Assembly (NCBI RefSeq): GCF_042242105.1
Contig: NC_092013.1
Span: 11,649,618 to 11,713,617 of the forward strand
DNA from: Pempheris klunzingeri
Lineage: Eukaryota > Chordata > Actinopteri > Acropomatiformes > Pempheridae
Reading direction: 5' to 3'
Length of the DNA: 64,000 nt
Part shown: positions 10,901-52,062 of the stretch, in pieces
Numbering within the stretch: the first letter of the stretch is position 1
Layout: every line of letters starts with the position of its first letter
Notes under the pieces: generated by a model
Databases searched by the model: none
What the model was told of the DNA's origin: nothing
What the model saw: the letters and a program-made list of their open reading frames with translations, nothing else
Translations under genes and position numbers: made by a program

Positions 10901-13900
10901 TACTATTCTGGCATGGCAAACCCAGTTGTAATAAAAAAAAATTGGGGAACGCTTGACCTCCCCTGTTTACAGGCAGCTGTAGAGTCTTCATTTTTAGTCG
11001 TGGTCTCTTTCCATGCCACAGAAACCTAGAGATAGATCTTTGGATATCTGAGATAGCTAACCTATTAATCCTAAGTGGTAACATTTGTATCGGATATAAA
11101 ATTCTAGGAAGAACATTCATTTTAATTAAGCTGATCCTACCCATCCACGACAAAGGGAGATCAAACCACCTATTTAAATCATTCTTAATTGATTTTAAAG
11201 TTGTTATGAAATTTAGTTTATATAGATCTTTAATTACGGCAGATACTCTAATCCCCAGGTAAATAAAACCAGAAAGTGACCACTTGAAGGGAAAATCAAC
11301 CAGGGTGGTATGGTCTCCAAAGTTGCCAAGAGGCAGAGCCTCTGATTTCTCAAAATTAATTTTATATCCTGAAATCTCACCAAATTGATTAATGATTGAT
11401 ATTAAATTAGGTATGGAATTCTCTGGGTTTGTGATAAACAGAAGAACGTCATCAGCATAGAGAGAAATTCTATGGTCAATGCTTCCTAAGGTGATACCGG
11501 GCAGACTGTGATGGCACCTAATGGTCTCTGCAAGTGCCAGGGCAAATAATAAAGGGGACAGGGGACATCCCTGGCGAGTACCTCTAGACAAGGGAAAGAT
11601 ATCGGACACTAAGCCATTTACCCGAATCCTTGCGGATGGAGGCGAATCCAATTTATAAAATCTGTACCCAGCCCAAATCTATGCAGTGTGTCAAATAGAT
11701 ACTCCCACTCCACGCGGTCAAATGGAGGTCACATTGGAGTGAGAGTATCTATTCTTTACAAAGCCAGTCTGATCCGGATCGACCAAGACAGGCAACACCA
11801 ACTCCAGTCTTCTAGCAAGTAACTTTGCAAGTATTTTGAAATCAGTTCCAAGCAAGCTAATTGGTCTGTAAGACGCACAATTATCTGTGGGTTTATCTTT
11901 TTTCAAAATTAAAGAAATGTGGGCCAGATTTAAAGTTGGTGGGAGATAGCCCCTATCAGCCGACTCAATAAACATGTTAGTCAGAGGTCCTACAACCAAG
12001 CTGGACATCTTTTTATAAAATTCAGGTCCAAACCCATTGGGGCCTGGAGCTTTCTCACTTGGCAGGGATTTAATGGTTTCCATGACCTCTTGTGCTGTAA
12101 TCGGTCTACACAGGTTGCGGCTATTTTCCTCAGACAAAGAGGGAAGGCCAACCCCATCGAAAAAACGCTTCCTTTTCGTTGATGTGTTTAGACACTCCGT
12201 TGTATATAGTTTTTGATAAAACTCTTTCATTATATTACAAATACGTTTGGTTTTAATATGTCGGGTACCTGTACTTTCTTTGAGAGATGATATTGTGGTA
12301 AGACCAGTTTGGCCTCTAGCCAGCCAGGCAAGTAGCCTGCCAGGTTTGTTACCAGTCGTGAATAATCGATGCTTGGCAAAAAAAATCGCAGATTCTGCTT
12401 TTTGAGTCAGCAAATGGTCTAGCGTAGATCGGGCGGCTTCCAGTTTTTTAAAAACTTCTCCTTGCTACTGTGAAAGAGATTATTGACCCCCTCATAAAGG
12501 CTTTTCCAGCTTCCCACAAGGTGGAAGCTGAAGTATCAGGTGTATCATTTTTGGAGATGTAAAGTTTCCATTCTGCTTCCAAGTATGACATAAAGGACGG
12601 ATTGCTAAATAGTAATGGATTCATGCGCCACTGTCTAGCCTGAGGGTCATAGTAAGGAGGCATGAGTTCAACCGTTACAGATGAGTGATCAGAGAGGGGA
12701 CATGTCTTGATAGAGCAAGTTTTGGTCCGAACAAGAGTTAATCTTGAAACAAAGATATAATCAATTCTTGAGAAAGAATGATGAGGGTGAGAGAAGAATG
12801 TAAAGTCTTTCTCTTGTGGATTAATGACTCTCCATGCATCTAGTAATCCAAGATCTGTACACAGTTCCGTTATAACATGAGAGATTTTGGAAAGAGGAAA
12901 GTTTTTAGCTGGTTTGTAGTCCAGGTCAGGAACCAAGCCACAATTGAAGTCACCTCCAAGTACAACATGGGAAGGACAAACTGCAGAAATTTCAGCCAAT
13001 AATCTGGAATAAAATGAGCTTTCATAGCTATTTGGAGCGTAAACACTTCCTATCAGAATTTGTTCACCATGTAGAAATCCAGTAATAATGACGAACCTTC
13101 CCTCCTTGTCCTGGACAATTTTATCAAGTGTGAATGGTAGGCGTTTGTGGATGAGTATTGCTACTCCTCTACTTTTTGAATTATATGAAGCAAAGAAGAC
13201 TTGGCCAACCCAGTCTCGTCTGAGCTTTATTTTAATGTATTTTTAACATTAATGTTTCCCTGTTGAGCCTACAGACCCCCAAACTAAAGACTGTAGTAGT
13301 AAGTAAGTAAGTAAGTAAAGACCGTCCTTTCTCTTTTTCTCCTGCCCCTTCAGTAAATGTGTGTGAAAACATGCTGTTGACACTTGGCTCCCTTTATGTT
13401 GTTATAAGGGGATCTGTTGATCATGTGACCTCCTCTAGCCCTTCAGCAGGTCGACTGCCCCCGCCCACCGAAAACCCCCCGAGTCCACCTCACTGTCCGC
13501 CAGTGTTTTTTCCTCACTAACTCCAGCACAAAGATGTCAAATGCAAGAGAGAAGCACGAGGGTTGTTCTGTTCTTCTAAAGCGAAGTGTTCAGACAGGAT
13601 GAAAACGGCTGCCGCAGTTTTTGAACATTAAACCATGTAAACCTCTTCTGATAGGACCTCCAAATATCCAAGTATGAACTTTAAAATGAGCAGAATATGG
13701 GACCTTTAAAGCCAAATTCAATGGACACAGTCTTTTGTAGTCAGTGCTAACAGCTAGCAGTGTTAATCACATAACCACCTTGACTTGTCCAATGACGTGA
13801 TGGGAATCTCTCCCATCGCTGCCCTTCATCCCATGAGATATGAACACTGCATAGTGGAGGATGCTATTCACTATCACTATAGGCGTGGGATCCAGTGTGG

Positions 13901-31851: not shown

Positions 31852-33731
31852 GTAATGAAATAAAACACAGTATACTGAAAAAAAAAATATACTGCTAAGA
31901 TCATTAATATGAACTTGTTGATTATCTTGGAATTATGAATTTATTTACCAGTAAATCAATTAATTGTTTCACACACATGTTTGGAGTTACTGAGGCCTTT
32001 TTCCTGGAAAAAACCCCCTTCCTTTTCCGACATGACCTTTATCTACACGGTTACAGTTTTCTGCTATGACTCACCGTCCCTCAAAGGGCAGTCTGCAGAT
32101 AAAATAGGCGCCCCAGACAGATACTACATTTCAAATCTTCACTGACTTCGTGGAGCCAGAAAATGTTTTGGTTGTTCAACTATTTGGTCAGCTTGACCTA
32201 AATAGGCAAGTCTGTGGTGAACTGAGAGAGATTAATTATAGATCAGAGGAAGTGGTTGGGTTAATAGTGTCAGGCCACTAGAGATCAGCATGCATCACCA
32301 GCTGAACGTGGGTTGACTTGTTTTTAACCAGCTGGTTTAATTTAAAGAACACCTGGGACAGATAGTTCAGTATGTTCTGTGTTTAATATCCTAATATATG
32401 AGTAATCATATGAGTGTTCGTCAGTCAGGACAGGATGACCAGACATCCCCGATTTCAGGACCACTCAGATTCAGTATTTTGAGCCAATTGGCTGTTCTCT
32501 CAGATGGTCTGTCCACCCATCAGGGTGCCCTTGTGTTTTCAGTTTTCTGAGTAATGTGCCAGAGCATCTTTACCCGTGCATGCAGAAGGACCCTGTGCAC
32601 AAAACAAACGGGCCACGGGTCACAATTAAACCACAAAATATTGTAATCTGGGAACAGAATCAAATGCACAATTCATCTTGGAAGGATGAGACTTGAAACA
32701 GAAGAGCATCTTGACTAGAAAACTACATTTTCCAGGAGACAGACTAGACACTGATCCTTCTGTCTGGCTGCACAGGGGACACATGACCACTATTAACATC
32801 ATAATGCCACAAGATTTGTCACTGTATGTCAAATTATTTATATTTTATTATTATTGATTCAAAGAATACGAACTTTTAATAGACATTCAGAAAGTTAATC
32901 ACTCACAGCTAACGTGGTGTTTTTAAAAAAAATGTAATTCAGTATGTCTGCCAGAAGAGGGAGCTCATTAGTAGCACAGAGTCCTTCCACCAGCCATATA
33001 AACTAGTTATCTCATTATCTGCTTCATAATGTCTCTGTAGTACTAACAACTTGTTTCTTTGTTATAAAAAGAAATAAGAAGTCAAGAAGACTGATTCATG
33101 TTCAAAATGTATATTTTATGTAAAACCAAGAAATGTTTGAAGTTTTAAGCCAAACTTTATCCCTGATCCACATCTTCAGGGTTATTTTCTTATACTCACG
33201 TAGAGGCCAACACATTTTCTGTTGTTTGCACTATTCTGGTTTGATGCTAAACTGCATTTTATTGTACTTTTACTCACTGTGTGCAATAGTAGTAAAGTTT
33301 AATATATTCTAATCTAATAATAAATCAGATTTGAGCCTAGATAATGAGATACTCAGATAAAATGTTATTATCTCTACTTTTTAAAAACAGTCTCATAAGT
33401 GATTCGATGATGACTATTTCTAACACAATCTGTTTATTCATTATTTATCAATCTTTCTTTTCCTTCGTCCAAAATGGGCATCCATGTTGGCTCCTTGTAT
33501 AATCTGGGCATTCATTCATTCTTCTTAACTTAAATGTGTGTTTACTTTGTTCAGCTATGTTGTCCTTGTCTCCTTGTCTGTTTCAAGATTCAAGATTCAA
33601 AGACTTTATTGTCACATGCTCAGCAGTTACATGAAGCAATCACTGGCAGTGAAATTCTTGTATCTCTGGATCCCGGTAACACTGCTAACAGTATCAAGTT
33701 TACGAGTAAGTACAAGAGAGCAGTGGAAAAA

Positions 33732-33765
<34 letters not shown>

Positions 33766-34340
33766 CCGTTTTTACTACCTCGTGGGACCCCCTGACAGGG
33801 AGCAGCCTAGTGGGAACCACCCTTTCTGAAGGGTCTACAGACATAGTTTTAACTGCTAAAATCATTAAAAATTAATGTAAACACAAAAATCACTTGAAAT
33901 ATAAGAAACTCTTTAAAAAATTGAAAACCTGATTTTTGCTCCCCTTGGGGACCAGTCTCATCAAATCTCAATCTTGTCACCTCCCGGGGACCAATCATGT
34001 GACATCTTTCCACATGCACTAAACTGCACTGTTAGCGCTACACAATTCATGACAGGCATCTAATCCAACTGCTGTAGGATTGAAACCTTTGTCAGATTAC
34101 ATGAACACTGAATCTGATAGTCCAGACTGTCAGATGACAGATTTTTCTCCAGAAACAGGTCAGATTCTCACTCTAAAATATAATTTTTGTGCAAATGTTT
34201 GATTAAACAGTTAATAAACATGATGGCCCCTTTCATAAATCATGCTTGCTGCTCCGCCTGAACACTCCGATGGGTTCAGTATTAAAGATGTTACCTCCAG
34301 CCCAGCATCCATCTACAGAGCACACAATCAACCACTGCCG
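31852..34340. other. Intergenic, no gene seen
   Basis: AT-rich sequence between the nuak2 promoter and the end of the recombinase-like gene. It contains a retroelement tail (33583-33665) and a CA microsatellite (33733-33762). A GGGACC-rich stretch around 33780-34000 resembles part of the repeat at 50.7-51.0 kb. Open frames are short and unrelated to known proteins. Confidence 0.5.
33733..33762. repeat. (CA)n microsatellite
   Basis: A perfect CA run of about 15 units next to a retroelement tail. Confidence 0.9.
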
Positions 34341-34361
34341 ATTTCCCTTTTGTTTTTTATT

Positions 34362-34600
34362 GTTTCTGGAACATATCCATAGTGTGGATAAATACATGCT
34401 GAGACTGAATGCTATATTCTCCAGAAGGTAGGTACTCACAGCATCTCAGGTACTCACATAATTCACAGCCAACTGGCTGGTATTGTTTTGTTTCTGCAAC
34501 ATGAATACATATAGAAAATAAATCCATTTTAAAATTGAACACTACATTCTCCAGCACGTAGGTACTCACAACATCTCATAATTCACAGCCAACTGGCTGT
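34362..34600. repeat. Two diverged tandem copies of about 115 bp
   Basis: Copy A (34362-34480) and copy B (34490-34600) share GTTTCTG-AACAT, TTCTCCAG-A-GTAGGTACTC and ATAATTCACAGCCAACTGGC in the same order. The pair lies 50 bp beyond the stop codon of the recombinase-like gene, so it probably falls in its 3' UTR. Confidence 0.75.
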
Positions 34601-34652
34601 CAGATAGAGTTTTAACAGAACAACCCAAACGTGGACATTGTGTGTGTCTTTG

Positions 34653-37600
34653 TCAGTAATATCTTCTTGCACTTTCACGCTGAAAGGCAGTGATGCGATT
34701 TTTAACATAAAACTTTACCGCTGTCCAAGTTCTTCCTCTCAGTGCTCCCGGTGAAGCCTCGATACAGCGAACACAATCTGACTTTCCTGGTACTTTACCA
34801 GATTGTATGAAGGTCATTAGTGTCTTTTCCACAGCACAGACCTCTGCAGATGACCAATGTCTCCTCTTTGACGATTCTAAGAAAGAGACAAGAGAATCAG
34901 TATTTAGAAACATGGAAGTAACATCTTGGTCTTGATACATATTGATAAAGAAATTGGACTTCTGAGATACAGGTGAAATCAGGTTTTTAGTCTCTGAGAG
35001 ACAGCACCTGTCACTGAGACTCTCTGCTCCCAGTGACTAACTGGAGCCACTGGTAGAGGCCATTTCAATCAGGCTAGAATGTACAAGCCCTCATTACACA
35101 TTACACTGATAAAAGCAGGTGAGTAAAATAGAGGGGGGGGGGGGGGTCATTTAGTGTGAAATACCTGCTTTAAGTTTACTACTGTCAGACTCAGCAGTTT
35201 CCGGTCTTCTCTTTAGAGTTAACAATCCTGTTAAAATAGTAAATGTTGAGCAGATCAAAAGACAAGTAACAATTTACTCAGCTGCTGTAACAGTTCTTTA
35301 TATTATTTCACTCCAGCATGTATACAGATGGTGTATAGTCACTGAGGATGACAATCATGAATTCTAACTACATATTGATGCAATTAAAGCCAACAATTTG
35401 TGTTTTAAGTACTGAACACATATTAAATATATAATAATGTGTCCATTCTACCGCATTTAGTCTGTCTAATGTCCATTTTAGAGGCACCACTATCACACTC
35501 ACCTTGCTGTCTTTTCTTGGGTCTTGAGGATTCTGTTAAAATAATAAGTACATTAATACAATAAAAGGACAGCTAACTGGGAATCTATTAAAAGATGTAA
35601 ACTCATCCATTGTTACTGAAGGAGTGATCGGAGCAGGAATCAAACCCCAGTCTCTCAGAGGGAAATCTTAAACCACTACACTATTAGTTACTTTAATCAA
35701 GTTAAACTTAAGTTTTGTCTAAAAAGCAATCCATTCTGTATTTGTTGGTTGACGTACACAAGGTGTCTCTCAGATAGTTGAAGTATTTCTGCGGCTTTGA
35801 AATAAAATCATCGTATTGGGGCTAGAAAACTAAAATCAGACTTTGTTTTAATACTGCCCGTTTTTCTGTTCTGTGAGAAAAACAAAGACAGATAAACAGG
35901 AGATATGAACATCAAGTGCCATGACATCAGTTTGTGGAACACCTGTGGCAGTAGGTTCAGCTCTCTGTCCTATTTGAGGAATAAATAGTTTACAAAATTA
36001 AAAAAATGCAGGTCACTATGTAATACCAAGACGAGCGAAAAGGGAAAAACAATTGGGAAAATGGCAACTGAAACACAGCAGTTTAGTAGATACTCCAGCC
36101 ACTGCATTGCCACCCAGTCTTTTCTAAAACCAGTGTGCTGTGTGACCTGTGAGCAGTAGACTGGACTCCATATTTAAGATCCTAACTGTGCTTAAACTGT
36201 GTTTATTTCTTTTTTCAGTGGGCTGAAATAATTATAAATTAGCTTGGTGCAGTAGTAGTACTCATTTTGATAATATTTTCAGATAATGACAGTGGCATTA
36301 TTTTCTAACTGAATTTTGCCAACTTAAATTTTGCAAAATAAATTAACAGAATTTCTATTCAAAAGTAGTTGGCGTACATTTGGTCGAATATTCAAATGCC
36401 ATCACATTATTTCTTTAATTTCATCCCTGTAAAAGCAGGCAAGTCAAATAACAATAAAACCATCTATTGTGTGAAATACCTGGTGTAGGGTCGTCACCGT
36501 CAGACTCGTCCATTTCCTCTCTTCCTGTGGATGTTGAGGATCCTGTTAAAATATAGGAAGAAACAGCATTTGTTTTTGGTTGCTAAACTGAAAGAGGTAA
36601 CTCAAATAGCAGGAGGTATTTTATTATGTAAAGATACCTGTTGCAGGGCAATCACTGTCAGACTCAGTTTCTCTTTTTTTCTTGGGTGTTGAGTACCCTG
36701 TTAACATAACAATAAATCATTCCCTTTTTAAATTAGTCAGTGTTTATAAAAGACAATGAAAGAATGGAGAGAGTAGTTTCTACCCTGTGGTATACCTCTG
36801 GGTGTGACATCACCAAACTCGTCTGCGGATGGTAGACTTCTCTTCGAGGAGGATGTTGAGGATCCTTCAAGAAAAACACACAATATAGTAAATGCATTGG
36901 CATGTGGTTAATCTTCACACTCGCCTATTGTGTTGGAAGGTATAACTACTGTAGTAGTTGTAACCCACCTGCTGATGAAGAGAAAGACAGGTCCTCCCCT
37001 GCGTCGGAGAGATCGCTGTCCCTGGCTTCTGGCACTTCCTCTGAAAAACAGGGTTATCCCAAATATGACAGGAAAACATTTCCTCTGAAGTAGATCAATA
37101 TTGTTTAAACTCAATTTACCGTTGGGATCAATTTGGATTTGGTCCAGGCTCATTCCCTTGAAGTCTGAGAGTCGGCCTTGTTCTAGGGCAATCAGCACTT
37201 TGCTCACTTTAGCCAACTGCAGCGTTCCTTCAGGTAGTCTATAGTACTGCCTATGGACCCGGATGTCATGGCCGAGGAAATTTGCAAGTATGTCCATCTC
37301 ATTATCCCTTAGGTTTAGCACTGTGGACAGTGTGGACACGTGCTTTCTTAACTTGGTCGAGGACAGAGTTTCAGGATGCTTGGCCCCACATTCCTTTGCA
37401 ATCTGTCTGATGGCATCTGATCCCCTTAAGTGTGTTTCTGATTCAGGTCTGGAGAAAAAAAAGGGATTTTCATCAGGGACACCGCAGGCCCGTCGATGTG
37501 TGACCAAGACTTGCATTGAGGAGAGCATGTCTGGAGTCAGAAGAATGGGAACTTTCCTGTCTCTTTTCCCCCTGATTTCAATGCGCTCAAAATGCTGGCA

Positions 37601-40600
37601 GAGCTTTTGCTCGAACTCTGAAAGTCCTAGTGCCAAATCTGAATGCACTTCTGAGCTGTCTCTTAGAGTGAAGGCAATAAGTGGCATCTTTGACACCTCA
37701 CCCTCTCTCCTGCGATTGAACAGTATCACCTCACAAAGAGTCAAATTGGCCAGCTTGGACCAATTCTTCTTATTTGGATCATCTTTAAGCCTGCTTTGGT
37801 ATTCTTGTCTGCACTTGTCAAGATACGTGTGCATGCTCTTAACATCCTCAGTGAAAGGGAGGAGTTGAGGTGTGTTCCACTTCCCCTCTTTTAGAGTTTG
37901 TAGGGCACGTGATGACACGCACACATCCCACTTCTTCTCATAAAGACCCCGGCTCCTCTTCAGATTCTTGAGAAATTCTTCATTGTCAGACTCTGCCATC
38001 TGCGCTTCACACTCAAGAATATCAGCGATCTTCTTCAGACTATGGCCCAGTTTCAGAGCCAAAGATGGAGTTTTGTAGAGATTTCTCTCCTCATCAAAGC
38101 CTGCCACGCCCTTTACAGCATCAATCACAAAGTTGAAGTTGGAAGGTACATAGAAGTCCTCAATCCTTTTCAGTCTGCCCATTTTCTGCGCGTGCTGAAT
38201 TAGTCTACCCATTTCTCGCATCTTTTGTCTAATGTACTCATGTTTGGTCTTGTCATGTCCATGTTTTGCATAAATGTATTCTCCAAATCTCAAAATACTT
38301 TTCTGCTGTTTGATGATGTTTGTAATGTCATCTTGGTGCATACCATTTATCAGCTCCCAAACCTTATTGGTAACGCCATCTGGGGCTGGCTGTGCAAAAG
38401 CACAGAGTGACTGGATCCGACTTCTGCCGGGCTTGTTTGTATTGCATTTTTGTGAGAGCCTGCACCTGGACATGTGCCTCCATAATGATTTTCTTTTAAG
38501 AAAAGCCTTGCAGTTTATGCAGTGCATAAAGTCACTTACTTTCGCTGTTTTTCCAGATTGCTGTTTTGGGATTAGCGTTCCACGACCAGATTTTAGGACC
38601 TCATTATTATGAGCCTGGTCTCCTTTGTTTCTAATAAGGTCAAGATACAATTTTCGCTCTTTTGAGTTCAAAGGAAAGGCAACTGCTTGTGCTACAGCCG
38701 TTTCGTCGCTGTGTCTGCGTACTAAGTGCCTCGCCATTTTAAGGCAATGTATGGGGCAGTACAGACAATAATGTGGTTTATTGTAAAGTCTGCCACCATC
38801 TTTCTTTTTCTGCAGCTTCAGCACTGACACATCTTCCAGGTTTGTGTCCGTGTTGTCACTCTTTGCTCTCCTCTCATCATTATCTTTCGGAGTACTGTCC
38901 AATGTCTTTCCTCTACAAGGCTTCGACACCTTCTGTTTCACAGATGGAACCTTGCCCATAGGTTTGTCAGATCCATCTGAACTGCTTTCATCTGTGGAGT
39001 CTTTGGATGGAATATAGTCATCATCAGTGCTTTGGATGCAGCTATCTGAGGCTTCTGTATTATCTGGCACCTTGTACATCTGATCCAGGTATTCTTTGGT
39101 AAGCTGGAAAATTAAATATAAAATGACAATTGTAGCTAAATTATCTACAAGAAACATTAACAGGTATGAAAATCTTACATGGACTTGTGTTTCCCCTAGG
39201 ATGGAGTTTAGTGGCTGAGGTGTGCACACATGACCTGTGCCTGCTGGCACCAGGAGGAAGGCCTAAGTTCATACAGTACACAGGTGCACAGTAATAACCA
39301 GGGTAATCTGTCGAAAGCAATATCAAAAGATGATCTGGTCAAATATAATAAACTACTCTGCACTTGTTTATGAAGAACACATGACCAAGTATGGCTCATG
39401 TACTTAAGATTTGAGAATTGTGCTCGATGGAACAGATAAATAAGATTTCAGGCTTTAGCCCAACAGGCAATACTGTACTTTGTACATTCAATTTGTTGTT
39501 GGTGTTGGAAACTAAAATACAGGGTTCACAAAAAGTTTGGGATGTTCGACTTTCAGGTGAAATTCATGGAAAATGTAAAAAGTTAATGCTACAGTGATAT
39601 TATATCATGAAAGTAGGACATTTCATGTGAGAATGTGAACAGCATGATGAGGAGGACTGTTTAAATACCAGTTCTGACTGAAGCAGGAAATAATTTGGTG
39701 GTGGTTCATCCTGAAATTTCACCTGAAAGCCGAATATCCCTAACTTTTTGTGAGTAGTGTAAGTAGGCAGTAATATCATGCAGATATCCATCCATCCTCT
39801 ATACCGCTTATCCATCAGTGTCGCCAATTCCAGCTGACTTTAGGAAAGAGGCGTGATCACCCTGGACTGGTGGCCAGCCAACCACAAGGCCAACATGTAG
39901 AGACAGACAACCAGTCACCCATACCTACGGGCAATTTAGAGTCACCAGTTAACGTGCATGTCTTTGGCTTGTGGGAGGAAGCCAGAGTGCCTGGAGAAAA
40001 GCCACGCAAGCATGGGGAGAACATGCAAACTCCACACATCATGCAGATAAGTGAAAAGATTAATGTTACAGCTGTAACTCCATTATTCTATACATTTACT
40101 AGGGCTGCTCTCCAGCAGTAAGGAAACAGAAGCGGCACCATTTATTAACTGACACACTGGTGCCTACACTGTACACCTACTGCTCACTCACCTGTTGCTT
40201 AACCACTAACTGTTTTTGTAGAATGAGGACAGACAAAATTTTAGCAGAGGTGCTGATCCCTCTGCATTAGCAGTGCACTTCTACTAACTGAACCTCGGAA
40301 AAACACAAGTCTGTAAGACCCCCTTAAAACCTGAAGCTGACACTTGATGTTTCCAAGAAGCGACATAAATATAGAAAATTAACAGAACTGTTCTCTGTAA
40401 CCGTAACCATTTTCTCTTTTAAAAGTTAAATGCCCTGCTAGTTTTCATTAAGCAAACTTACAAATATGCTGTCAGTTCGTTGTAGGGGCGGGACATCTGG
40501 CTCGTCAATATCAGCATGTGGGCTTTCAAGACTCCGTGCATCGGTGTCGATGTCGGCATCTAGGCTCATTACCTACGGGGGAATATATATACATATATAT

Positions 40601-43600
40601 ATATAAGTACTAGAAGAAGTAGTCACTGTAACATACTGAAAAAAACTTCCTGAGCATTTGTCAAAGAGGATTCATTTCCTACAACACCAAATGATTGCCA
40701 GTTTGCTCCTGGTTTAAGAACAGTCTGCTTGTGAGGCTTGTCATTTTAAAAGTGCTTTTTTGGCACTTACGAAACTCGAAGCTGAAAGAAAGCTTGATGA
40801 CCCTTCTGGTGGTGATGAAGAGGTCTCCCCCTCTTGGAGTAAACTTCCTGAGGGCTGGAAAACATAGAGGACACATGAATTACCATTTCTCCAGGACATG
40901 CAGGTCAGAAAGAGTTAAACATATGGCGCTGTTGTGTATAATATACAGTATGTGGATGGAAACACTAAAAACCAACATTGGATATAGTCAATGTTAAGAA
41001 CTGCATCAGCAGTTATTAGTCTCTCCCTCAGGCCTTTGTAACTGATTCATTGTTTGACTGGTCAGCTTGCATCAAAGCGTGAAAGTAAGAGAAGAAGTGA
41101 TGCACACAGAGACAAAAAGCTTGTGAGAGAGAGACTGAGTGTGAATTAAGGAGCCAACTGTGAGACAGTAGCTTAATACATTTTAATATGTTAAATAATG
41201 GTGTACTGTAGTGACTTTATATTTATTTCATTACAATAATATTGGGGTGCATGTGTTTCCATCAGTTTTCCTGGTCAACAAAGCAACTTATGCTGAATTT
41301 AAGAAAAAAGATTTATACACATTTGTAACATAATGGCAGTAAAGCTAGGTTTGTCAATGACAAGCTAAAATCTCTGCTTGTTTATCACTTACCAAACTCT
41401 GGTGAGTTGTGCATGATTCAGATGGCAGCTCTGGCAGTGATGGGGTTTCTCCGTCCTGCGGTGGAGCTGCTGTGGGCTGTACACCAGACAGGACAGATGT
41501 ATTATCATAGATGTGTGTGCTACCGCTGACATATTAAAATACAAAAGGACGCACTAAACTCACCATCAACACATCCAAAGGACCAACTCATTTACCCTGA
41601 AGCCTGAATAAACTACACTGCCATCAATCTTTCTAATTTATCAAAGCTACACTGCTAATACGCTAGTAAATAATACTGGTACAATTTTTATATGCATCAC
41701 TGCAATCGGTGCACTGATACTTGCACCTATAACTATTTTACAAGTTTCATATGTGAATCAATAAACTGGGAAGGGAACACTTCAATCACATATTGAATTC
41801 CAATGAACTAAATATTCAAAATCAGAATCTTTACTGTACATTGTGTAATTCATTGAAAACAAAGCGATGCAATAATGTCACTGGAAACCAAAATCACAAA
41901 CCGCCTGAGGGCTGGGTACAAAACCACACTGAAAATCAGAGTAAAAAACTGAAATCTATTCTATTTAATACAATTGTATTCTGTTTGCATGAATACTGTA
42001 TCACATTTGAAAGTCCACCTCATCATCATTACCTGCGTTTGGTGTTTAACACCTGTCCTGGTCTTGGATAAGTGTTTACCATGTCGCTTCCTCAGACGAT
42101 GTGAGCGTGTCCTCTTCCTGGTGGATGGTGCGCTCCGTCTGCAGGAGGTTAAACACAAAACACTGTTACATCTGAGCAGAGCAGAGATGTTTACATGGAG
42201 CCATGCTTCCTTGGATTTAGAAAGATGTGTGACTGTAACTAAACTACAGTACAGCAGCCTGTAGACGTCTCAATAAGTCAGTTTCCACCACTGCGCATCT
42301 GACCGCTTCATTTAGCCCCCAGCGCCGGTAACACAGCATTAGGGCGCAGCAGCAGCTTCTCTCACTGCGGTCCATAAGCATTATATCAACCATCACTGCA
42401 GTCCATAAGGATTATATCTACTATCACTGCAACCATCACTGCAGTCTATAAGCATTATATCTACTATCACTGCAACCATCACTGCAGTCTATAAGCATCA
42501 TACCTACTATCACTGCAACCATCACTGCAGTCTATAAGCATTATATCTACTATCACTGCAACTATCACTGCAGTCTACAAGCATTATATCTACTATCACT
42601 GCAATCATCACTGCAGTCCATAAGCATTATATCTACTATCACTGCAATCATCACTGCAACTATCACTGCAGTCTACAAGCATTATATCTACTATCACTGC
42701 AGCCATCACTGCAGTCCATAAGCATTATATCTACTATCACTGCAATCATCACTGCAACTATCACTGCAGTCTACAAGCATTATACCTACTATCACTGCAA
42801 CTATCACTGCAGTCTACAAGCATTATATCTACTATCACTGCAATCATCACTGCAGTCCATAAGCATTATATCTACTATCACTGCAATCATCACTGCAACT
42901 ATCACTGCAGTCTACAAGCATTATATCTACTATCACTGCAGCCATCACTGCAGTCCATAAGCATTATATCTACTATCACTGCAATCATCACTGCAACTAT
43001 CACTGCAGTCTACAAGCATTATACCTACTATCACTGCAACCATCACTGCAACCATCACTGCAGTCTATAAGCATTATATCTACTATCACTGCAACCATCA
43101 CTGCAGTCTATAAGCATTATATCTACTATCACTGCAACCATCACTGCAACTCCCACTGCAGTCCATAAGCAATATATCAACTATCACTGCAGTCCATAAG
43201 CATTATATCTACTCTGTTACCAGTGTACAGCATGTCAACACGTTACAGTAAGCGTTTAAATGCACCAAGAGAAATGCAAAGAGATTAATTCGTTATTTTA
43301 ATTACAATAAAAATCCAACTCCAACTCAGCTGCTTCTAGCTAATGTGTGTAACCCTCATGACCTGTAGTTACATTAAAGTTTGATTCTTCTCACATTACT
43401 CGACATTAGCAGCAGGTGTTACTGACGCTGAAACACCAGCCATGACTGTTAGCTAGCAACACTGTCCACTAGCTATACTGTCCACTAGCTATACTGTCCA
43501 CTAACAACACTATCCACTAGCTATACTGTCCACTAACAATACTGTCCACTAACAACACTATCCACTAGCTATACTGTCCACTAACAATACTGTCCACTAA

Positions 43601-44876
43601 CAACACTATCCACTAGCTATACTGTCCACTAACAATACTGTCCACTAACAATACTGTCCACTAGCTATACTGTCCACTAACAATACTGTCCACTAACAAC
43701 ACTATCCACTAGCTATACTGTCCACTAACAATACTGTCCACTAACAATACTGTCCACTAGCTATACTGTCCACTAGCTATACTGTCCACTAACAATACTG
43801 TCCACTAACAATACTGTCCACTAGCTATACTGTCCACTAACAACACTATCCACTAGCTATACTGTCCACTAACAACACTATCCACTAGCTATACTGTCCA
43901 CTAACAACACTATCCACTAGCTATACTGTCCACTAACAACACTATCCACTAGCTATACTGTCCACTAACAATACTGTCCACTAACAATACTGTCCACTAG
44001 CTATACTGTCCACTAACAACACTATCCACTAGCTATACTGTCCACTAACAATACTGTCCACTAACAATACTGTCCACTAGCTATACTGTCCACTAGCTAT
44101 ACTGTCCACTAGCTATACTGTCCACTAACAATACTGTCCACTAGCTATACTGTCCACTAACAACACTATCCACTAGCTATACTGTCCACTAACAACACTA
44201 TCCACTAGCAACACTGTCCACTAGCAACACTGTCCACTAGCAACACTGTCCACTAACAGTGCTGTCCACTAGCAACACTGTCCACTAACAATGCTGTCCA
44301 CTAGCAACACTGTCCACTAACAATGCTGTCCACTAGCAACACTGTCCTCTAGCTATACTGTCCACTAGCAACACTGTCCACTAGCAACACTGTCCACTAA
44401 CAATGCTGTCCACTAGCAACACTGTCCACTAACAATACTGTCCACTAGCAACACTGTCCACTAGCTATACTGTCCACTAGCAACACTGTCCACTAGCAAC
44501 ACTGTCCACTAACAATGCTGTCCACTAGCAACACTGTCCTCTAGCTATACTGTCCACTAGCAACACTGTCCACTAGCAACACTGTCCACTAACAATGCTG
44601 TCCACTAGCAACACTGTCCACTAGCAACACTGTCCACTAGCTATACAGTTCACTAGCAACACTGTTAGCTAGCAACACTGTCCGCACACGTTAGCATGTA
44701 GTAAGCTAGGTCGCGTTAGCATTAGCGAATCATGCTGGCATAAAAATAAGCTTTCGGCTGCAAACACTCTAAAAGTTAAATTTAACCTAGTTAATTAATA
44801 AAACAACTCTCTGTACTTACTTGGCTTTCATTACATCGTCTCTCTGCCGTCCGACCACCGTCCGTGCTGTCCGCAT
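34653..44876 (-). CDS. Tyrosine-recombinase-like protein with zinc fingers and a Myb-like domain
   Basis: Fourteen exons keep one frame: 44876-44821, 42138-42033, 41476-41393, 40854-40771, 40572-40462, 39103-37120, 37040-36969, 36864-36796, 36697-36638, 36542-36480, 35969-35943, 35532-35503, 35227-35165 and 34876-34653 (1010 residues). Order: basic N-terminus (RKRTRSHRLRKR), acidic Ser-rich part, two zinc-finger-like motifs (CLYC...H...H, about 260-278; CINC...H...C, about 342-361), an integrase-like core (about 590-785), short Ser/Lys/Asp linkers, then a Myb/SANT-like end (SSKRRHWSSAEV to TWTAVKFYVKNRITAFQR). Core residues: RRREGEV (Arg 613), KRDRKVP, TKLR (Arg 733), LGH (His 759), QYYR (Tyr 768). 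Domain calls come from pattern memory; a Crypton-like origin is inference. Nuclear DNA binding is likely. The start could also be the ATG at 44831. The 27-nt exon is the weakest call. Confidence 0.75.
35165..36864 (-). repeat. Chain of short duplicated phase-1 exons
   Basis: Six consecutive short exons (69, 60, 63, 27, 30 and 63 nt) begin after one base of a codon and end after one base, so any can be skipped or added without a frame change. Four open with GATCC, AATCC or GGTAC and encode Ser-rich starts (GSSTSSSKR, GYSTPKKKRE, GSSTSTGREE, ESSRPKKRQ). Several then carry an ESDSD-like acidic part. Most are preceded by the same TTTTAACAG or TTAACAG acceptor, and several are followed by GTATTTCACAC. 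The shared exon edges and flanks show that the units arose by duplication. Confidence 0.75.
39520..39759. mobile_element. 240-bp MITE with long inverted repeats in the recombinase-like gene
   Basis: The element is bounded by TA dinucleotides (39518-39519 and 39760-39761). Its ends are imperfect inverted repeats of about 45 bp: CAGGGTTCACAAAAAGTTTG on the left and, inverted, CACTACTCACAAAAAGTTAG on the right, both running into CTTTCAGGTGAAATT. The TA target and lack of coding sequence fit a Tc1/mariner-type MITE. It lies in the intron between the fifth and sixth coding exons. Confidence 0.85.
39782..40044 (+). mobile_element. Conserved teleost retroelement 3' segment
   Basis: CATCCATCCTCTATACCGCT, CAATTTAGAGTCACCAGTTA, GCATGTCTTTGGCTTGTGGG and GGGGAGAACATGCAAACTCC follow in the order seen in a very abundant fish repeat of likely LINE/SINE origin. 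It has no open frame and is truncated. Confidence 0.65.
42369..43215. repeat. Minisatellite of about 43 bp in intron 1 of the recombinase-like gene
   Basis: The unit joins CATCACTGCAGTCTATAAGC to ATTATATCTACTATCACTGC plus a few bases. Near-identical copies vary at CCATAA/CTATAA/CTACAA. Some units carry an extra ATCACTGCAA-type 12-15 bp subrepeat, so unit length alternates. It spans about 0.85 kb without unique spacers. Confidence 0.9.
43450..44675. repeat. 16-bp minisatellite in intron 1 of the recombinase-like gene
   Basis: About 75 head-to-tail copies of variants of GCTATACTGTCCACTA, ACAACACTATCCACTA, ACAATACTGTCCACTA and GCAACACTGTCCACTA. The left half is dominated by the CTATACT type and the right half by the GCAACACTGTCC type, with blocks of two to four variants repeated together, which points to local expansion. 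It ends beside TTAGCTAGCAACACTGTCCG. Confidence 0.92.
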
Positions 44877-45110
44877 GCTCCTGAACTTCAGGTGAGACGT
44901 GAGCGGGGGGAGGGGGTGGGGCGTCGGCGTCGCAGGTAACGTGGGGACCGAAAATGTCTGGAGAAGTGTGTCCCATCTCTCCTATGTGTCCCATCTCTCC
45001 TGTGTGTCCACCGCGGGGTGGGGGATGGGCATGAGCAGCGTGGGGACCACAGTGAAAGTGTGTCCCTCCCTCACTTTGAGTTAGTGTGGACATTTTATTG
45101 TTGCTGTTTC
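44877..45110 (-). promoter_or_regulatory. Promoter / 5' leader of the recombinase-like gene
   Basis: A locally GC- and CpG-rich island (GGGGCGTCGGCGTCGC, 44917-44932) in AT-rich surroundings. It directly precedes the first coding exon. It also contains a short direct repeat (TGTCCCATCTCTCCT, twice). A 100-codon minus-strand frame from 45093 runs through here, but splicing from it enters a stop in exon 2, so I read it as untranslated leader. Confidence 0.5.
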
Positions 45111-45269
45111 ACAGACAGATCAGTGCATCTAGGAGAAGCCCTGTACATCAGAGCAGAGCAGGGTTGGGACACAGCCCTAAATTAGAGATCATTATGAAGT
45201 TGAGCTTTTATCATCCACACTATATAAAAGTGTATTAAGTTGACTGCCAATGCTATGCATGTAGATCTA

Positions 45270-46782
45270 CACTGCTCAAAAAATAAAGGGAACACTACAA
45301 TAACACATCCTAGATCTCAATGAATGAAATATTCCAGTTGAAAATCTTTATTCATTACATAGTGGAATGCGTTGAGAACAAAATAACATAAAAATGATCA
45401 ATGTAAATCAAAATTATCCCATGAAGGTCTGGATTTGGAATCATCCTCAAAATAAAAGTGGAAAATCACATTACAGGCTGATCGAGCTTCAGGGGAAATT
45501 CCTCAAGACAAGTCCAAGTGAGGCTCAGTAGTGTGTTTGGCCTCCACGTGCCTGTGTGACCTCCCTACAACGCCTGGGCACGGTCCTGATGAGGCGGAGG
45601 ATGTTCTCCTGAGCATCAGTCAACTCCTGGACAGTCTGTGGTGCAGCGTGGCGTTGGTGGATGGACGAGACACGATGTCCCAGATGTGCTCGATTGGATT
45701 CAGGTCTGGGGAACGGGCAGGCCAGTCCATAGCATCAATGCCTTCATCATGCAGGAACTGCTGACACACTTCAGCCACACAAGGCCAAGCATTGTCATCA
45801 GAAGGAACCCAGGGCCCACTGCACCAGCATATGGTCTCACAATGGGTCTGAGGATCTCATCCCGCTACCTAATGGCAGTCAGGGTACCTCTGGCTAGCAC
45901 ATGGAGGGTTAGGGGTTAGGGCCCTCCAAAGAAATGCCTCCCCACATCATTACTGACCCACCGCCAAACCGGTCATGCTGGAGGATGTTGCAGGCAGCAG
46001 AACGTTCTCCACAGCGTCTCCAGACTCTGTCACGTCTGTCACATGCTCAGTGTGAACCTGCTCTCATCCGTGAAGAGCACAGGGGGCTAATGGTAAATCT
46101 GCCAATCTTGGTGTTCTCTGGCAAATGCCAATCGCCCTGCACGGTGTTGGGCTGTAAGCACAAGCCCCACTTGTGGACGTCGGGCCCTCATCCCACCCTC
46201 ATGGAGTCTGTTTCAGACAGTTTGAGCAGAAACATGCACATTAGTGGCCTGCTGGAGGTCATTTTGCAGGACTCTGGCAGGGCTCCTCCTGTTCCTCCTT
46301 GCACAAAGGAGGAGGCAGTGGTCCTGCTGCTGGGTTGTTGCCCTCCTACGGCCCCCTCCACGTCTCCTGGTGTACTGGCCTGTCCTGGTATCTCCTCCAT
46401 GCTCTGGACACTGTGCTGAGAGACACAGCAAACCTTCTTGCCACAGCTCGCATTGATGTGCCATCATGGATGAGCTGCACTACCTGAACAACTTCTGTGG
46501 GTTGTAGACACCACCTCATCCTCACCTCTAGGGCTGAGAGCACTGACAAAATGCCAAGTGACCAAAACATCAGCCAGAAAGGATGAGAACAGAGAAATGG
46601 TGTGTGGTCACCACCTGCAGAACCACTCCTTTATAGGGGTTGTCTGTTCCATTTGCACAACAGCAGGTGACATTGATTCATCAGTGTTGCTTCCTAACTG
46701 GACAGGTTGGTTTCACAGAAGTGTGATTGACTTGGAGTTACATTGTGTTTTTTAGGTGTTCCCTTTATTTTTTTGAGCAGTG
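45270..46782 (-). mobile_element. Tc1-like DNA transposon, degenerate
   Basis: Flanked by TA on both sides, with inverted ends: CACTGCTCAAAAAATAAAGG on the left and, inverted, CACTGCTCAAAAAAATAAAG on the right. On the minus strand the transposase begins with a paired-like helix-turn-helix ([20 protein letters not shown], then [18 protein letters not shown], about 46500-46400). The catalytic-domain remnant RSPDLNPIEHIWDI lies near 45660-45710. The frame is broken several times between them, so the copy is inactive. Length is about 1.5 kb, normal for the group. Confidence 0.92.
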
Positions 46783-47186
46783 TACATTTCATAATCTAAT
46801 GTGACTAACAATGCGACATCACCTGTATTCTCAGTCTGTATAAATGTCAGGATGGTGCCAACAGTTGGCCTGGTCGAGTCAGTATTGGCAGAGTATGTGA
46901 ACACTGCAGGTGTCCCACTGTTCTCTTCTACAGAAACAGGAAATATAAAGACAAGCTGAACAAAGGAAACATTTCTAAAACAATTTACTGAAGCATAAGA
47001 AGTTTAGGGCTATGCCGTGATTGTAACAGCCACCAAATGCAACACACAGGACGCCATTGACAAGTCTTTCATTAGGGAGGGGGCCCACTGTCATCTCCAC
47101 AGTTTTGAGCTTGCTCAGCTCCAAGTTGATCTGACCCACCAACAGGCCAGCTGTTTGATAGAGACCCCATCTGTATGCAGACTAAA

Positions 47187-50100
47187 ATATCAGGACACAG
47201 GCTAACTGTGGGTCTGGTCTCAGTTTGGACACTCATCAGGACACAGGCTAACTGTGGGCCTGGTCTCAGTTTGGACAAATATCAGGACACAGGCTAACTG
47301 TGGGCCTGGTCTCAGTTTGGACACTCATCAGGACACAGGCTAACTGTGGGCCTGGTCTCAGTTTGGACAAATATCAGGACACAGGCTAACTGTGGGCCTG
47401 GTCTCAGTTTGGACACTTATCAGGACACAGGCTAACTGTAGGCCTGGTGGCTAACTGTAGGCCTGGTGGCTAACTGTGGACCTGGTCTCAGTCTTGACAA
47501 ATATCAGGACACAGGCTAACTGTGGGCCTGGTCTCAGTTTGGACACTTATCAGGACACAGGCTAACTGTGGGCCTGGTCTCAGTCTTGACAAATATCAGG
47601 ACGCAGGCTAACTGTGGGCCCGGTCTCAGTTTGGACACTTATCAGGACACAGGCTAACTGTGGGCCCGGTCTCAGTTTGGACACTTATCAGGACACAGGC
47701 TAACTGTGGGCCCGGTCTCAGTTTGGACACTTATCAGGACACAGGCTAACTGTGGGCCCGGTCTCAGTTTGGACACTTATCAGGACACAGGCTAACTGTG
47801 GGCCTGGTCTCAGTTTGGACACTTATCAGGACACAGGCTAACTGTGGGCCCGGTCTCAGTTTGGACACTCATCAGGACACAGGCTAACTGTGGGCCCGGT
47901 CTCAGTTTGGACACTCATCAGGACACAGGCTAACTGTGGGCCTGGTGGCTAACTGTGGGCCTGGTCTCAGTTTGGACAAATATCAGAACACAGGCTAACT
48001 GTGGGCCCGGTCTCAGTTTGGACACTCATCAGGACACAGGCTAACTGTGGGCCCGGTCTCAGTTTGGACACTTATCAGGACACAGGCTAACTGTGGGCCC
48101 GGTCTCAGTTTGGACACTTATCAGGACACAGGCTAACTGTGGGCCTGGTCTCAGTTTGGACACTTATCAGGACACAGGCTAACTGTGGGTCCGGTCTCAG
48201 TTTGGACACTCATCAGGACACAGGCTAACTGTGGGCCTGGTCTCAGTCTTGACAAATATCAGGACACAGGCTGACTGTAGGTCCGGTCTCAGTTTGGACA
48301 CTCATCAGGACGCAGGCTAACTGTGGGCCCGGTCTCAGTTTGGACACTCATCAGGACACAGGCTAACTGTGGGCCTGGTCTCAGTTTGGACACTTATCAG
48401 GACACAGGCTAACTGTGGGCCCGGTCTCAGTTTGGACACTCATCAGGACACAGGCTAACTGTGGGCCCGGTCTCAGTTTGGACACTTATCAGGACACAGG
48501 CTAACTGTGGGCCCGGTCTCAGTTTGGACACTTATCAGGACACAGGCTAACTGTGGGCCCGGTCTCAGTTTGGACACTCATCAGGACACAGGCTAACTGT
48601 GGGCCTGGTCTCAGTCTTGACAAATATCAGGACACAGGCTAACTGTAGGTCCGGTCTCAGTTTGGACACTCATCAGGACACAGGCTAACTGTGGGCCTGG
48701 TCTCAGTTTGGACACTTATCAGGACACAGGCTAACTGTGGGCCCGGTCTCAGTTTGGACACTCATCAGGACACAGGCTAACTGTGGGCCCGGTCTCAGTT
48801 TGGACACTTATCAGGACACAGGCTAACTGTGGGCCTGGTCTCAGTTTGGACAAATATCAGAACACAGGCTAACTGTAGGTCTGGTCTCAGTCTTGACAAA
48901 TATCAGGACACAGGCTAACTGTGGGCTTGGTCTCAGTTTGGACACTCATCAGGACACAGGCTAACTGTGGGCCTGGTCTCAGTCTTGACAAATATCAGGA
49001 CACAGGCTGACTGTAGGTCCGGTCTCAGTTTGGACACTCATCAGGACGCAGGCTAACTGTGGGCCCGGTCTCAGTTTGGACACTCATCAGGACACAGGCT
49101 AACTGTGGGCCTGGTCTCAGTTTGGACAAATATCAGGACACAGGCTAACTGTGGGCCTGGTCTCAGTTTGGACACTCATCAGGACACAGGCTAACTGTGG
49201 GCCTGGTCTCAGTTTGGACACTTATCAGGACACAGGCTAACTGTGGGCCCGGTCTCAGTTTGGACACTCATCAGGACACAGGCTAACTGTGGGCCCGGTC
49301 TCAGTTTGGACACTTATCAGGACACAGGCTAACTGTGGGCCCGGTCTCAGTTTGGACACTTATCAGGACACAGGCTAACTGTGGGCCCGGTCTCAGTTTG
49401 GACACTTATCAGGACACAGGCTAACTGTGGGCCCGGTCTCAGTTTGGACACTTATCAGGACACAGGCTAACTGTGGGCCTGGTCTCAGTTTGGACACTTA
49501 TCAGGACACAGGCTAACTGTGGGCCCGGTCTCAGTTTGGACACTCATCAGGACACAGGCTAACTGTGGGCCTGGTCTCAGTCTTGACAAATATCAGGACA
49601 CAGGCTAACTGTAGGTCCGGTCTCAGTTTGGACACTCATCAGGACACAGGCTAACTGTGGGCCTGGTCTCAGTTTGGACACTTATCAGGACACAGGCTAA
49701 CTGTGGGCCCGGTCTCAGTTTGGACACTCATCAGGACACAGGCTAACTGTGGGCCCGGTCTCAGTTTGGACACTCATCAGGACACAGGCTAACTGTGGGC
49801 CTGGTGGCTAACTGTGGGCCTGGTCTCAGTTTGGACAAATATCAGAACACAGGCTAACTGTGGGCCTGGTCTCAGTTTGGACACTTATCAGGACACAGGC
49901 TAACTGTGGGCCCGGTCTCAGTTTGGACACTCATCAGGACACAGGCTAACTGTGGGCCCGGTCTCAGTTTGGACACTCATCAGGACACAGGCTAACTGTG
50001 GGCCTGGTCTCAGTTTGGACAAATATCAGAACACAGGCTAACTGTAGGTCTGGTCTCAGTCTTGACAAATATCAGGACACAGGCTAACTGTGGGCTTGGT

Positions 50101-50190
50101 CTCAGTTTGGACACTCATCAGGACACAGGCTAACTGTGGGTCTGGTCTCAGTTTGGACACTTATCAGGACACAGGCTAACTGTGGGCCTC
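47187..50190. repeat. 46-bp minisatellite, about 65 copies, with higher-order structure
   Basis: The unit reads ATCAGGACACAGGCTAACTG, TGGGCCCGGTCTCAGTTTGG, ACACTT. Variants differ mainly at GGGCCC/GGGCCT and at ACACTT/ACACTC/ACAAAT. Rare variants recur together at a distance. For example, GGCTGACTGTAGGTCCGG followed by ACGCAGGCTAAC occurs near 48270 and again near 49010, about 16 units apart. A few units carry a short GGTGGCTAACTGTGGGCC insertion. No unique spacers, so this is not a CRISPR array. Confidence 0.95.
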
Positions 50191-50690
50191 ATCTTAGTTT
50201 CATACTGGGCTACTGTAGCTTCAGTTTGTACAGCACACTGTCACTTAGTTTTCACCTCAGCTTAAAATCAATATTAATGTAAATGTCATTCTCTCTTAAT
50301 GAGCTCATTTCATTGTGATTAAACACCTCCCTTTAAGGTTTATGGTACATTGTGTACTCTGTAATAGTAATCAATATTCCATCCAAAATATCTGGTAATC
50401 ATTCATTGATTCTGAAATCAATGAACGATGTACTGTACCGGTACTGTACTGGTCCAACAATTAATTAATTTATTTGTTTGTTTATTTGTTTATTTGTCAT
50501 TTAAATATGTATTTACTTCAGGCCATTAACAATGACGTCACTTCTTTCAAAGAATAAAAAGGCTTTGAAAGGAATTTAATGATGAACCGGGTCCCTTTCC
50601 TGATTTTAGGTTCTGTCATTCAATAACATGCAAGTCTGATGACATCAAAGTGCTCAGAAAGTGATAATATTCATAAAACACTAACCTCAT
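50191..50690. other. Intergenic, no gene seen
   Basis: AT-rich sequence after the 46-bp array, with a short TTTATTTG-type run near 50470-50500. No conserved open frame. Confidence 0.5.
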
Positions 50691-50981
50691 ATAACATACA
50701 CACTTACACACACTGTCAGGAAAACGGACCCCACCATCCAAATACACACACCGCAATACCCTCGACCACCACTGGGGAACACACAAAGTCTTGAAAATCA
50801 AGTCTGTGGGGACCAAAATTATTTTTCAAAATAAACCTCACCAGGCATATCAGGAGGTCGTTTTCTATTGATTGCAATGCTCGTGCCTGTGGGGACCGGG
50901 GGTCGGTCCCCACAAGAAAAATTGGTCCCCATTTGGTGAGTGAAATGTCAGGTGATGGTCCCCACCAGGATAGAAATACAA

Positions 50982-51025
<44 letters not shown>

Positions 51026-51030
51026 TAGAG
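50690..51030. repeat. Teleost GGGACC-rich repeat ending in a CA microsatellite
   Basis: Several GGGACC/GGTCCC words (TGTGGGGACCGGGGGTCGGT, ATTGGTCCCCATTTGG, GATGGTCCCCACCAGG) lead into a CA run at 50985-51023. I recognise this combination from many teleost intergenic regions. The 180-codon minus-strand frame across it is a repeat artefact. Confidence 0.6.
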
Positions 51031-51049
51031 AAGCTGCTGACATTCCAAA

Positions 51050-52062
51050 ACCACATTTCCCAGGGTGCAGTGCGCCCTCCCGATCCCCGCCCTCTGCTCT
51101 CCATAACTTTGGTTCGGGTTTCTATTTTGCAGTGATTTGATTGCTCGGTTGCAGGAACGACATTTGGTCCGGACACACCTCGCCCTGCACCGCTGCTGGC
51201 TCTCCTCTTCATCTTCATCTTCATCTTCGTCCCCAAAGGAGAAAATAATCCTCTTCACTTAGTCTCCGTGGAAGATGTCCGCTGGCACCTCCGGGCCGGA
51301 GCCTGTTTAGGAAGATCTTTTCCCACGGACTCATCAGCGGAAAAAAACAACAGTGTTTTTTTCTGTTTTTTGTCGCGCTTAGGCCGTTGTCATTTAGAGG
51401 CAGCTGTCCACGGAGGGGCCCCTGTGTGAAAGCTGTGTCTGTGTCCTGGAGAGTGGATGTGAACTTTAGGGCTATGTCTGTGGAGCCAGGCCGGGGAGAG
51501 GGCGGACCGGAGATGCCTTCAGGCTAGCAGCGCTAACCTCAGCTGGACCGCAGCTCGGTCGCACCGCTCGTACCGCTTAGTTAGCAGCTGGCCTCGCTTT
51601 GGTTTTAAGACAGTTTGCAGCCAGTCAGACACCAAGCACAGGATGTCGAGATAGCGGAAACTTTGGTAGTTAGTTGTTAAAATCTTGCCTCGGCTCAGTA
51701 ACACTGAAGTTTACGTTTAGCTAGCTAGCTAGCAGTGCGGGTCAGCTCCAGTGTCAACAACAAAAGCCAAATGCCAAGCCCCTCTTCACTGACACTACAC
51801 ACTACAGGGGCTGTTGTCTGTCCAGCACACATGCACTCATGTTAATCTTATTTTAAAACCGACTACAGGTGAATGAAGGTGTTTCTCTTTGGGTTATTTA
51901 ACACAGTCTGGCAGGTGGGTGGACAAACATGAGTAAATAACTAGCACGCCGAGACAGAGGAGTGATAACAGGACTGACTGACATTGGAGCATCTCGGCTT
52001 GGACTATTTTGGGGGCTTTACCTAACAAATCTCAACAAGGAAAAGACAGCAACCTGTTGGCC
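51050..52062 (+). promoter_or_regulatory. dstyk promoter and 5' leader
   Basis: A GC-richer stretch with CpG words (CTCGGTCGCACCGCTCG around 51553), GCTAGC runs (51718-51732) and a long region before the first ATG at 52063. Either a long 5' UTR or an upstream noncoding exon is possible. A CTTCAT-type repeat lies at about 51207-51227. Confidence 0.5.

Follow-up and report, generated by a model that had tools for sequence, protein, structure and literature searches.

How does a gene with thirteen exons, a CpG-rich start and an unbroken frame come to lie, almost unchanged, at several places in one genome? The question is raised by a 64,000-nucleotide stretch of Pempheris klunzingeri DNA (contig NC_092013.1, positions 11,649,618 to 11,713,617; hereafter the window, with positions counted from its first letter). 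An earlier note on this DNA had proposed that a recombinase-like gene in it was either a host gene that arose from a mobile element or a low-copy lineage still under selection. We consider it highly probable that the gene belongs to a low-copy, probably autonomous DNA transposon, the only evident gene of which is this intron-rich tyrosine recombinase. A 17.2-kb unit with the same ends occupies five CA-tract sites in unrelated flanks, and it carries the gene intact, introns included, with constraint on the recombinase core; that the gene is also transcribed and active we infer.

The mobility of the unit is apparent in the species' own assembly (646 Mb, 439 contigs), which contains at least 63 scored matches to the core in at least 41 clusters, 67 of the 74 candidates having been scored. 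Five copies on three chromosomes are nearly identical, their core exons agreeing at 98-100% in protein: copy A at C2:9.70 Mb, copy W (that of the window) at C2:11.69 Mb, copy C at C2:2.81 Mb, copy D at C14:13.50 Mb and copy B at C19:3.00 Mb. This count, proposed as a check in the earlier note, yields few copies, and they have imperfect inverted ends. Similarity among them starts at window position 33763 and stops at 50984, delimiting an element of 17,222 bp (15.9-17.2 kb across the copies; gene on the minus strand) with the same first and last bases in all five. Their ten flanks of about 1.5 kb are unrelated, one 58-bp match being found among them, and tblastn detected no second copy within the window. 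A further copy at C24:12.46 Mb, 99% identical, has both ends and lacks window positions 36291-41144, that is exons 4-10 with the whole core, while one on C20 still has the left end, plus two short pieces of the interior, with no match to the right end. These two look like the core-less derivatives that are usual for DNA transposons.

At their borders, the copies share a CA microsatellite. The element in the window is bounded by a (CA)15 tract on the left (33733-33762) and a (CA)19 tract on the right (50985-51023), and all five full copies sit between CA tracts, copy C with CT at its left junction; tracts of at least seven units account for 878 of the 183,404 bases (0.5%) of sequence at hand, copy flanks included. 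Nine matches to the left end occur in the genome, and each adjoins CA that always runs in one orientation with respect to the element; those beyond the five copies lie on C24 (99% identical), C20 (94%), C13 (85%) and C4 (79%), the last two being partial. Queried without CA, the right end has six near-identical matches, each of which then continues with CACACACA, and one partial match (85%). The pattern of microsatellite-specific insertion is therefore seen in five of five full copies, nine of nine left ends and six of six near-identical right ends. A target duplication would be invisible here, because both junctions remain CA. Just inside the tracts lie imperfect terminal inverted repeats: a left arm at 33767-33797 (plus strand), a candidate recombinase-binding arm, and a right arm at 50946-50984 (minus strand), the rightmost 246 bp of the element being 100% identical, as rounded, in six copies. 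When the left 45 bp are aligned locally with the right 45 bp in reverse complement, the score is 31, which is reached by 1 of 5000 dinucleotide shuffles; among 1631 internal 45-mers taken outside the minisatellites, the highest score is 22. Abundant short non-autonomous relatives, reportedly present in other fish, were not found; the right-end pattern, allowing up to 3 mismatches, occurs at seven places in the genome, six of which are this element.

Inverted ends of this kind are also expected of a DDE-type transposon, which could have preferred CA sites and captured the recombinase gene as cargo. Such a reading can point in addition to a helix-turn-helix relic at 46349-46630, which we take to be Tc1/mariner-like and which lies in a stretch that has matches in all four other copies. 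Nevertheless, we judge it improbable. The relic is a 94-amino-acid piece well inside the element; it was the sole Pfam match among 14 further open reading frames (ORFs) of at least 90 amino acids in or overlapping the element, which yielded no other transposase-like domain and no reverse transcriptase. The scan left aside the ORFs at 37916-38203 and 41961-42269, three ORFs of minisatellites, one across the left end and all those below 90 amino acids. The recombinase core, moreover, is conserved, and all nine left ends found are oriented the same way with respect to the CA strand, a bias unexpected for a transposase acting on symmetric inverted repeats; the probability of this one-way outcome is 0.004, given random orientation and independent insertions. 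It is this fixed orientation that best separates a recombinase mechanism from a DDE transposase.

Hand splicing of the gene reproduces the end coordinates given in the earlier note, 44876 and 34653, and its single unbroken frame, without stops and with GT and AG at all 12 introns; the 14 exons and 1010 codons of that note became 13 exons and 1001 codons plus stop, in a search for a fourteenth exon that was not exhaustive. On the minus strand, exon 1 with the start codon (44821-44876) is followed by exons 2 (42033-42138), 3 (41393-41476), 4 (40771-40854) and 5 (40462-40572), then by the core exon 6 (37120-39103), which encodes the zinc fingers and the recombinase domain. Downstream lie exons 7 (36969-37040), 8 (36796-36864), 9 (36638-36697), 10 (36480-36542), 11 (35503-35532, 30 nt) and 12 (35165-35227), and finally exon 13 with the stop codon (34653-34876), encoding a Myb/homeodomain-like three-helix end. 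Exon 6 is open over 661 codons, with no stops in frame, whereas the two remaining sense frames contain 33 and 60. Judged against a small training set of host exons that we chose ourselves, codon statistics are poor for exons 9, 11 and 12 (P 0.12-0.21), and the codon use of exons 6 and 13 is unlike that of the training exons (log-likelihood ratios of -10.9 and -4.7 bits). A CpG-island-like window over exon 1 (44701-45100; GC content 0.52, observed/expected CpG 0.80, thresholds met by 28 of 637 windows) is a candidate promoter. Exon 8 opens a run of similar phase-1 exons: exons 8-12 (36480-36864 and 35165-35532) have the same phase, the acceptor of exons 9-12 ends in TTAACAG, and the run looks as if it had been multiplied through tandem exon duplication. 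Intron 1 contains two large minisatellites, at 42362-43213 and 43453-44683.

The recombinase motifs that the earlier note had seen in the right order and spacing are indeed present. R613, K660, R733, H759 and Y768 follow one another in the catalytic domain (37241-37708, minus strand), which was placed by motif order, profiles and alignment; T730 occupies the place of the first His of HxxR, and the spacing from H to Y is 9 residues, the same as in XerD. A home-made profile of 69 XerD-like sequences gives 15.6 bits for the last 219 residues of exon 6 and 12.9 bits for the whole protein, the best of 1000 shuffles of those 219 residues reaching 7.6 bits. In a profile-profile comparison with hhalign, eight sequences from the same genome (the window's included) align with 28 XerD-like sequences over 98 columns (P 3e-4, probability 40%), an alignment that brings the Lys strand into register along with the LR and LGH boxes. 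Motif order and profiles thus weakly suggest a tyrosine recombinase. The Pfam check proposed in the earlier note was negative: a scan with exons 7-12 left out found no integrase (PF00589), DUF3504, Myb/SANT or zf-C2H2 match, the top match being zf-C4 on the second finger, under the family cut-off (E 0.0022).

Conservation was followed in a family alignment of the window core with seven divergent long-frame loci, out of 30 loci cut (n=8). Three of the eight retain the full R-K-R-H-Y set, namely the window protein and L093 (C5:29166758-29168404) and L094 (C23:419596-421503), which represent a second recent lineage; these two are 98.4% identical over 3.1 kb and both have the same Thr in HxxR. The zinc-finger-like motifs of the earlier note are confirmed as Cys/His sets conserved in eight of eight aligned sequences: finger 1 (C260, C263, H273, H278; 38711-38767, minus strand) has its two Cys and first His invariant, and finger 2 (C342, C345, H357, C361; 38462-38521, minus strand) its two Cys and its His. 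The putative Myb/SANT-like end proposed in the same note is supported by its position and has no Pfam match. Of the 22 matches to exon 13 across the genome, 21 share the strand of a core match and lie no more than 11.3 kb to its 3' side (two behind one core on contig C10), while the lone match without a core is that of the core-less C24 copy; this links both domains to a single gene. Structure prediction gives exon 13 three helices at low confidence (predicted local distance difference test, pLDDT, of 62), and Foldseek returned 27 matches at E <= 10 for this model and none at E <= 0.001. Because the best of them, a yeast MATalpha2 complex, has an E of 0.87, the Myb/homeodomain label expresses a likeness only. 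Relatives of the protein sought in viral contigs, prokaryote genomes (with a 209-residue piece only), phages and plasmids gave none that could be confirmed, by methods that reach close relatives.

Divergence between the copies, measured over window positions 33763-42175, indicates how recent the element is and where selection acts. Non-coding differences amount to 5 of 5460 positions between W and A and 8 of 4939 between C and D, so that the closest pairs differ by 0.1-0.2% (99.8-99.9% identical), while W differs from B, C and D by 2.0-2.1%. By these figures, the element appears to have spread recently within the genome. In residues 370-808, amino-acid-changing differences number 0 of 1032 sites between W and B and 1 of 1033 between W and C or D, 0-1 where about 20 would be expected between element lineages (Fisher p 6e-9 to 5e-8, core amino-acid-changing versus non-coding differences); synonymous differences in the same residues are 4 of 285 and 1 of 284. 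Selective constraint is demonstrated by these comparisons for the recombinase core and for no other part. The low-copy lineage still under selection envisaged in the earlier note is accordingly borne out by five intact copies with a constrained core, and not by the rest of the protein, in which no constraint shows.

Several observations weigh against a mobile tyrosine recombinase and have to be set beside this evidence. The first His of HxxR is replaced by Thr; the profile-profile match at 40% spans Lys to LGH, leaving the first Arg and the Tyr outside; the structure prediction suggested in the earlier note gave, from the single sequence, an unusable model of the core (pLDDT 35); and searches of Pfam, PDB sequences, NCBIfam and PHROGs found no match to a recombinase. 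The Fisher p-values for the core are optimistic, because the limits 370-808 were fixed after the variable codons had been seen. Outside the core, the N-terminal part, the zinc-finger/linker region and the C-terminal part diverge roughly as fast as non-coding DNA. The ratio of amino-acid-changing to synonymous rates over the whole coding sequence (dN/dS) lies at 0.75-2.2 when W/A are compared with B/C/D and at 0.45 for B compared with C/D, and synonymous change, at 0.5-1.2%, itself falls short of the non-coding 2%. The C20 left end lies at a short, interrupted CA tract, and the second lineage on C5 and C23 has no CA tract of at least 6 units in 8.6-8.9 kb, a span in which the element ends were not reached. 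Finally, classical Cryptons are without terminal inverted repeats (PMC3212892).

The threonine in HxxR invites the thought that the element still targets CA and has lost its own catalysis, being moved in trans by another recombinase. Movement in trans is conceivable, because a core-less copy exists. However, the core is constrained, and L093 and L094, near-identical copies in which the other motifs are kept, carry the same Thr; a decayed passenger is thus quite improbable to us.

A low-copy tyrosine-recombinase transposon has also to be weighed against a host gene of mobile origin that was multiplied with its surroundings by segmental duplication. The many introns, the CpG-island-like start and the open frame with its constrained core would all suit such a gene, and relatives with long frames and lost catalytic residues do exist elsewhere in the genome. 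L095 (C7:14798000-14799808), L098 (C10:25151930-25153546) and, side by side, L100 (C16:4639143-4640771) and L096 (C16:4643471-4645381) have long open frames with two or three catalytic residues lost, and these four are candidates for domestication or recent decay because of their long frames and dead-looking sites; L089 has lost the catalytic H. At the locus of the window, however, the host-gene reading of the earlier note fails: common CA-bounded ends at five sites with unrelated flanks, together with a core-less copy that has both ends, lead us to reject segmental duplication of a host gene, which the 99.8-99.9% identity of the closest copies renders very unlikely as well. The intron richness that the note had read as pointing to a host gene is carried by the mobile element instead. 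Copies A and B have 13 of 13 exons, in frame and with no stops; copies C and D have 12 of 13 without gaps, the 30-nt exon 11 being missing; and the splice dinucleotides are intact in every exon found across these four copies. As far as can be read from these copies, gene and introns moved together, and the intron richness is a property of the mobile element. The introns look old in the family, since several divergent relatives have, by eye, an acceptor-like sequence before the core exon at the corresponding place, and in L089, L096 and L100 the core exon ends, again by eye, in a donor-like sequence at the corresponding place. Because introns are retained in the other copies, spliced RNA is unlikely as the moving form and retroposition is rejected; a tyrosine-recombinase retrotransposon of the DIRS/Ngaro kind, which also encodes such an enzyme (PMC3212892), is hence extremely unlikely, the 14 further ORFs of at least 90 amino acids having given no reverse transcriptase match either.

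The rest of the element and its surroundings can be described briefly. A 46-bp minisatellite array of about 3 kb (47188-50200) lies inside the element and is matched in the other four copies, and the second recent lineage on C5 and C23 also has a tandem array 3' of its core. A third group of relatives has a split core, with L106-L109 at C18:23.23, C23:18.58, C24:14.80 and C22:20.42 Mb, three compared pairs being 97.9-99.7% identical over longer stretches; further split-core loci, outside this pair comparison, lie at C11:0.113 and C21:0.111 Mb. Rfam gave no match in 33000-52000. Outside the element, 10899-13242 contains a relic of a long interspersed nuclear element with reverse transcriptase and endonuclease pieces, and we take neighbouring reading frames to be NUAK2-, DSTYK-, bystin- and cyclin-D-like, which, in agreement with the earlier note, was the basis for considering the host a fish.

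How could a recombinase of this type choose a simple repeat? In the mechanism that we propose, the zinc fingers and the Myb-like domain would bind the two terminal inverted arms, and the recombinase would excise the element, perhaps as a circle in which the two arms then flank a short CA stretch. Element ends joined via CA would therefore present inverted arms around a short spacer, the crossover layout of tyrosine recombinases, and would resemble a loxP-type site with its arms and spacer. The sites of Cre and Flp consist of inverted arms around a short spacer. The CA spacer would pair with a chromosomal CA tract, strand exchange proceeding via Tyr768, and any CA tract could serve as partner. 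Since CA differs by reading direction, the need for the spacers to match would determine which way round the element inserts, in line with the nine of nine left ends. Recombinases of this class typically use two inverted arms of 11-13 bp and a spacer of 6-8 bp, and Cryptons have been proposed to excise as circles (both as described in PMC3212892). Whether the whole combination holds, with a CA microsatellite as crossover spacer, orientation set by repeat polarity, a 13-exon transposase with a CpG start, and dead, possibly domesticated relatives in the same genome, seems to us an evenly balanced question.

Because one genome contains nearly identical copies that end alike, a derivative without the core, insertions in a single orientation and a gene that is intact, the crossover mechanism is directly testable. 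A gene with many introns and a CpG-rich start can evidently be a recent transposon, so that such loci are prone to annotation as host genes. For DNA insertion, an enzyme directed at CA repeats would also make a tool of practical interest. In the literature searched, the scope of which left out most subscription papers and Repbase, we found no paper describing this element, and microsatellite-targeted tyrosine-recombinase transposons received brief mentions only.

Comparison with known systems starts from the XerD-type enzymes, with which the element shares motif order, H-to-Y spacing and inverted arms around a short spacer; it differs in the Thr for the first His of HxxR and in a target that is a simple repeat without arms. 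The DUF3504 host genes (ZMYM2/3/4, QRICH1, KCTD1 and KIAA1958) derive from Crypton recombinases, some with zinc fingers, and are described as lacking most catalytic residues (PMC3212892), whereas our element is mobile, keeps R-K-R-H-Y and has no Pfam DUF3504 match. CryptonA and CryptonI of animals likewise encode a tyrosine recombinase without a reverse transcriptase, frequently occur in very few copies and have non-autonomous derivatives; they are described as lacking both a C-terminal domain and terminal repeats, Cryptons generally showing neither terminal inverted nor long direct repeats and terminal direct repeats of 4-6 bp (PMC3212892). In the present element, by contrast, which is 17 kb long, a 13-exon gene with a Myb-like end lies between inverted arms, and the target is CA. 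Subject to the identity of its recombinase, it agrees with Cryptons as a DNA transposon that encodes such an enzyme, being mobile with its introns and having no reverse transcriptase in the 14 further ORFs scanned; its imperfect inverted repeat departs from their ends, and the CA that flanks it would act as the direct repeat.

The closest known kind among the Crypton transposons would be the microsatellite-targeted CryptonV, to which we liken the element by description. A Repbase report on CryptonV of cnidarians is said to have been published by Kapitonov and Jurka in 2012. CryptonV is a lineage of DNA transposons encoding a tyrosine recombinase, with some families that insert specifically into microsatellites, as mentioned in PMC8869645, citing a 2012 Repbase report on cnidarians, and it is entered in the classification tables of PMC4455052 and PMC5753468. 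These elements were described from cnidarians; by analogy, our element would work like a CryptonV, without the lack of inverted ends that characterizes classical Cryptons.

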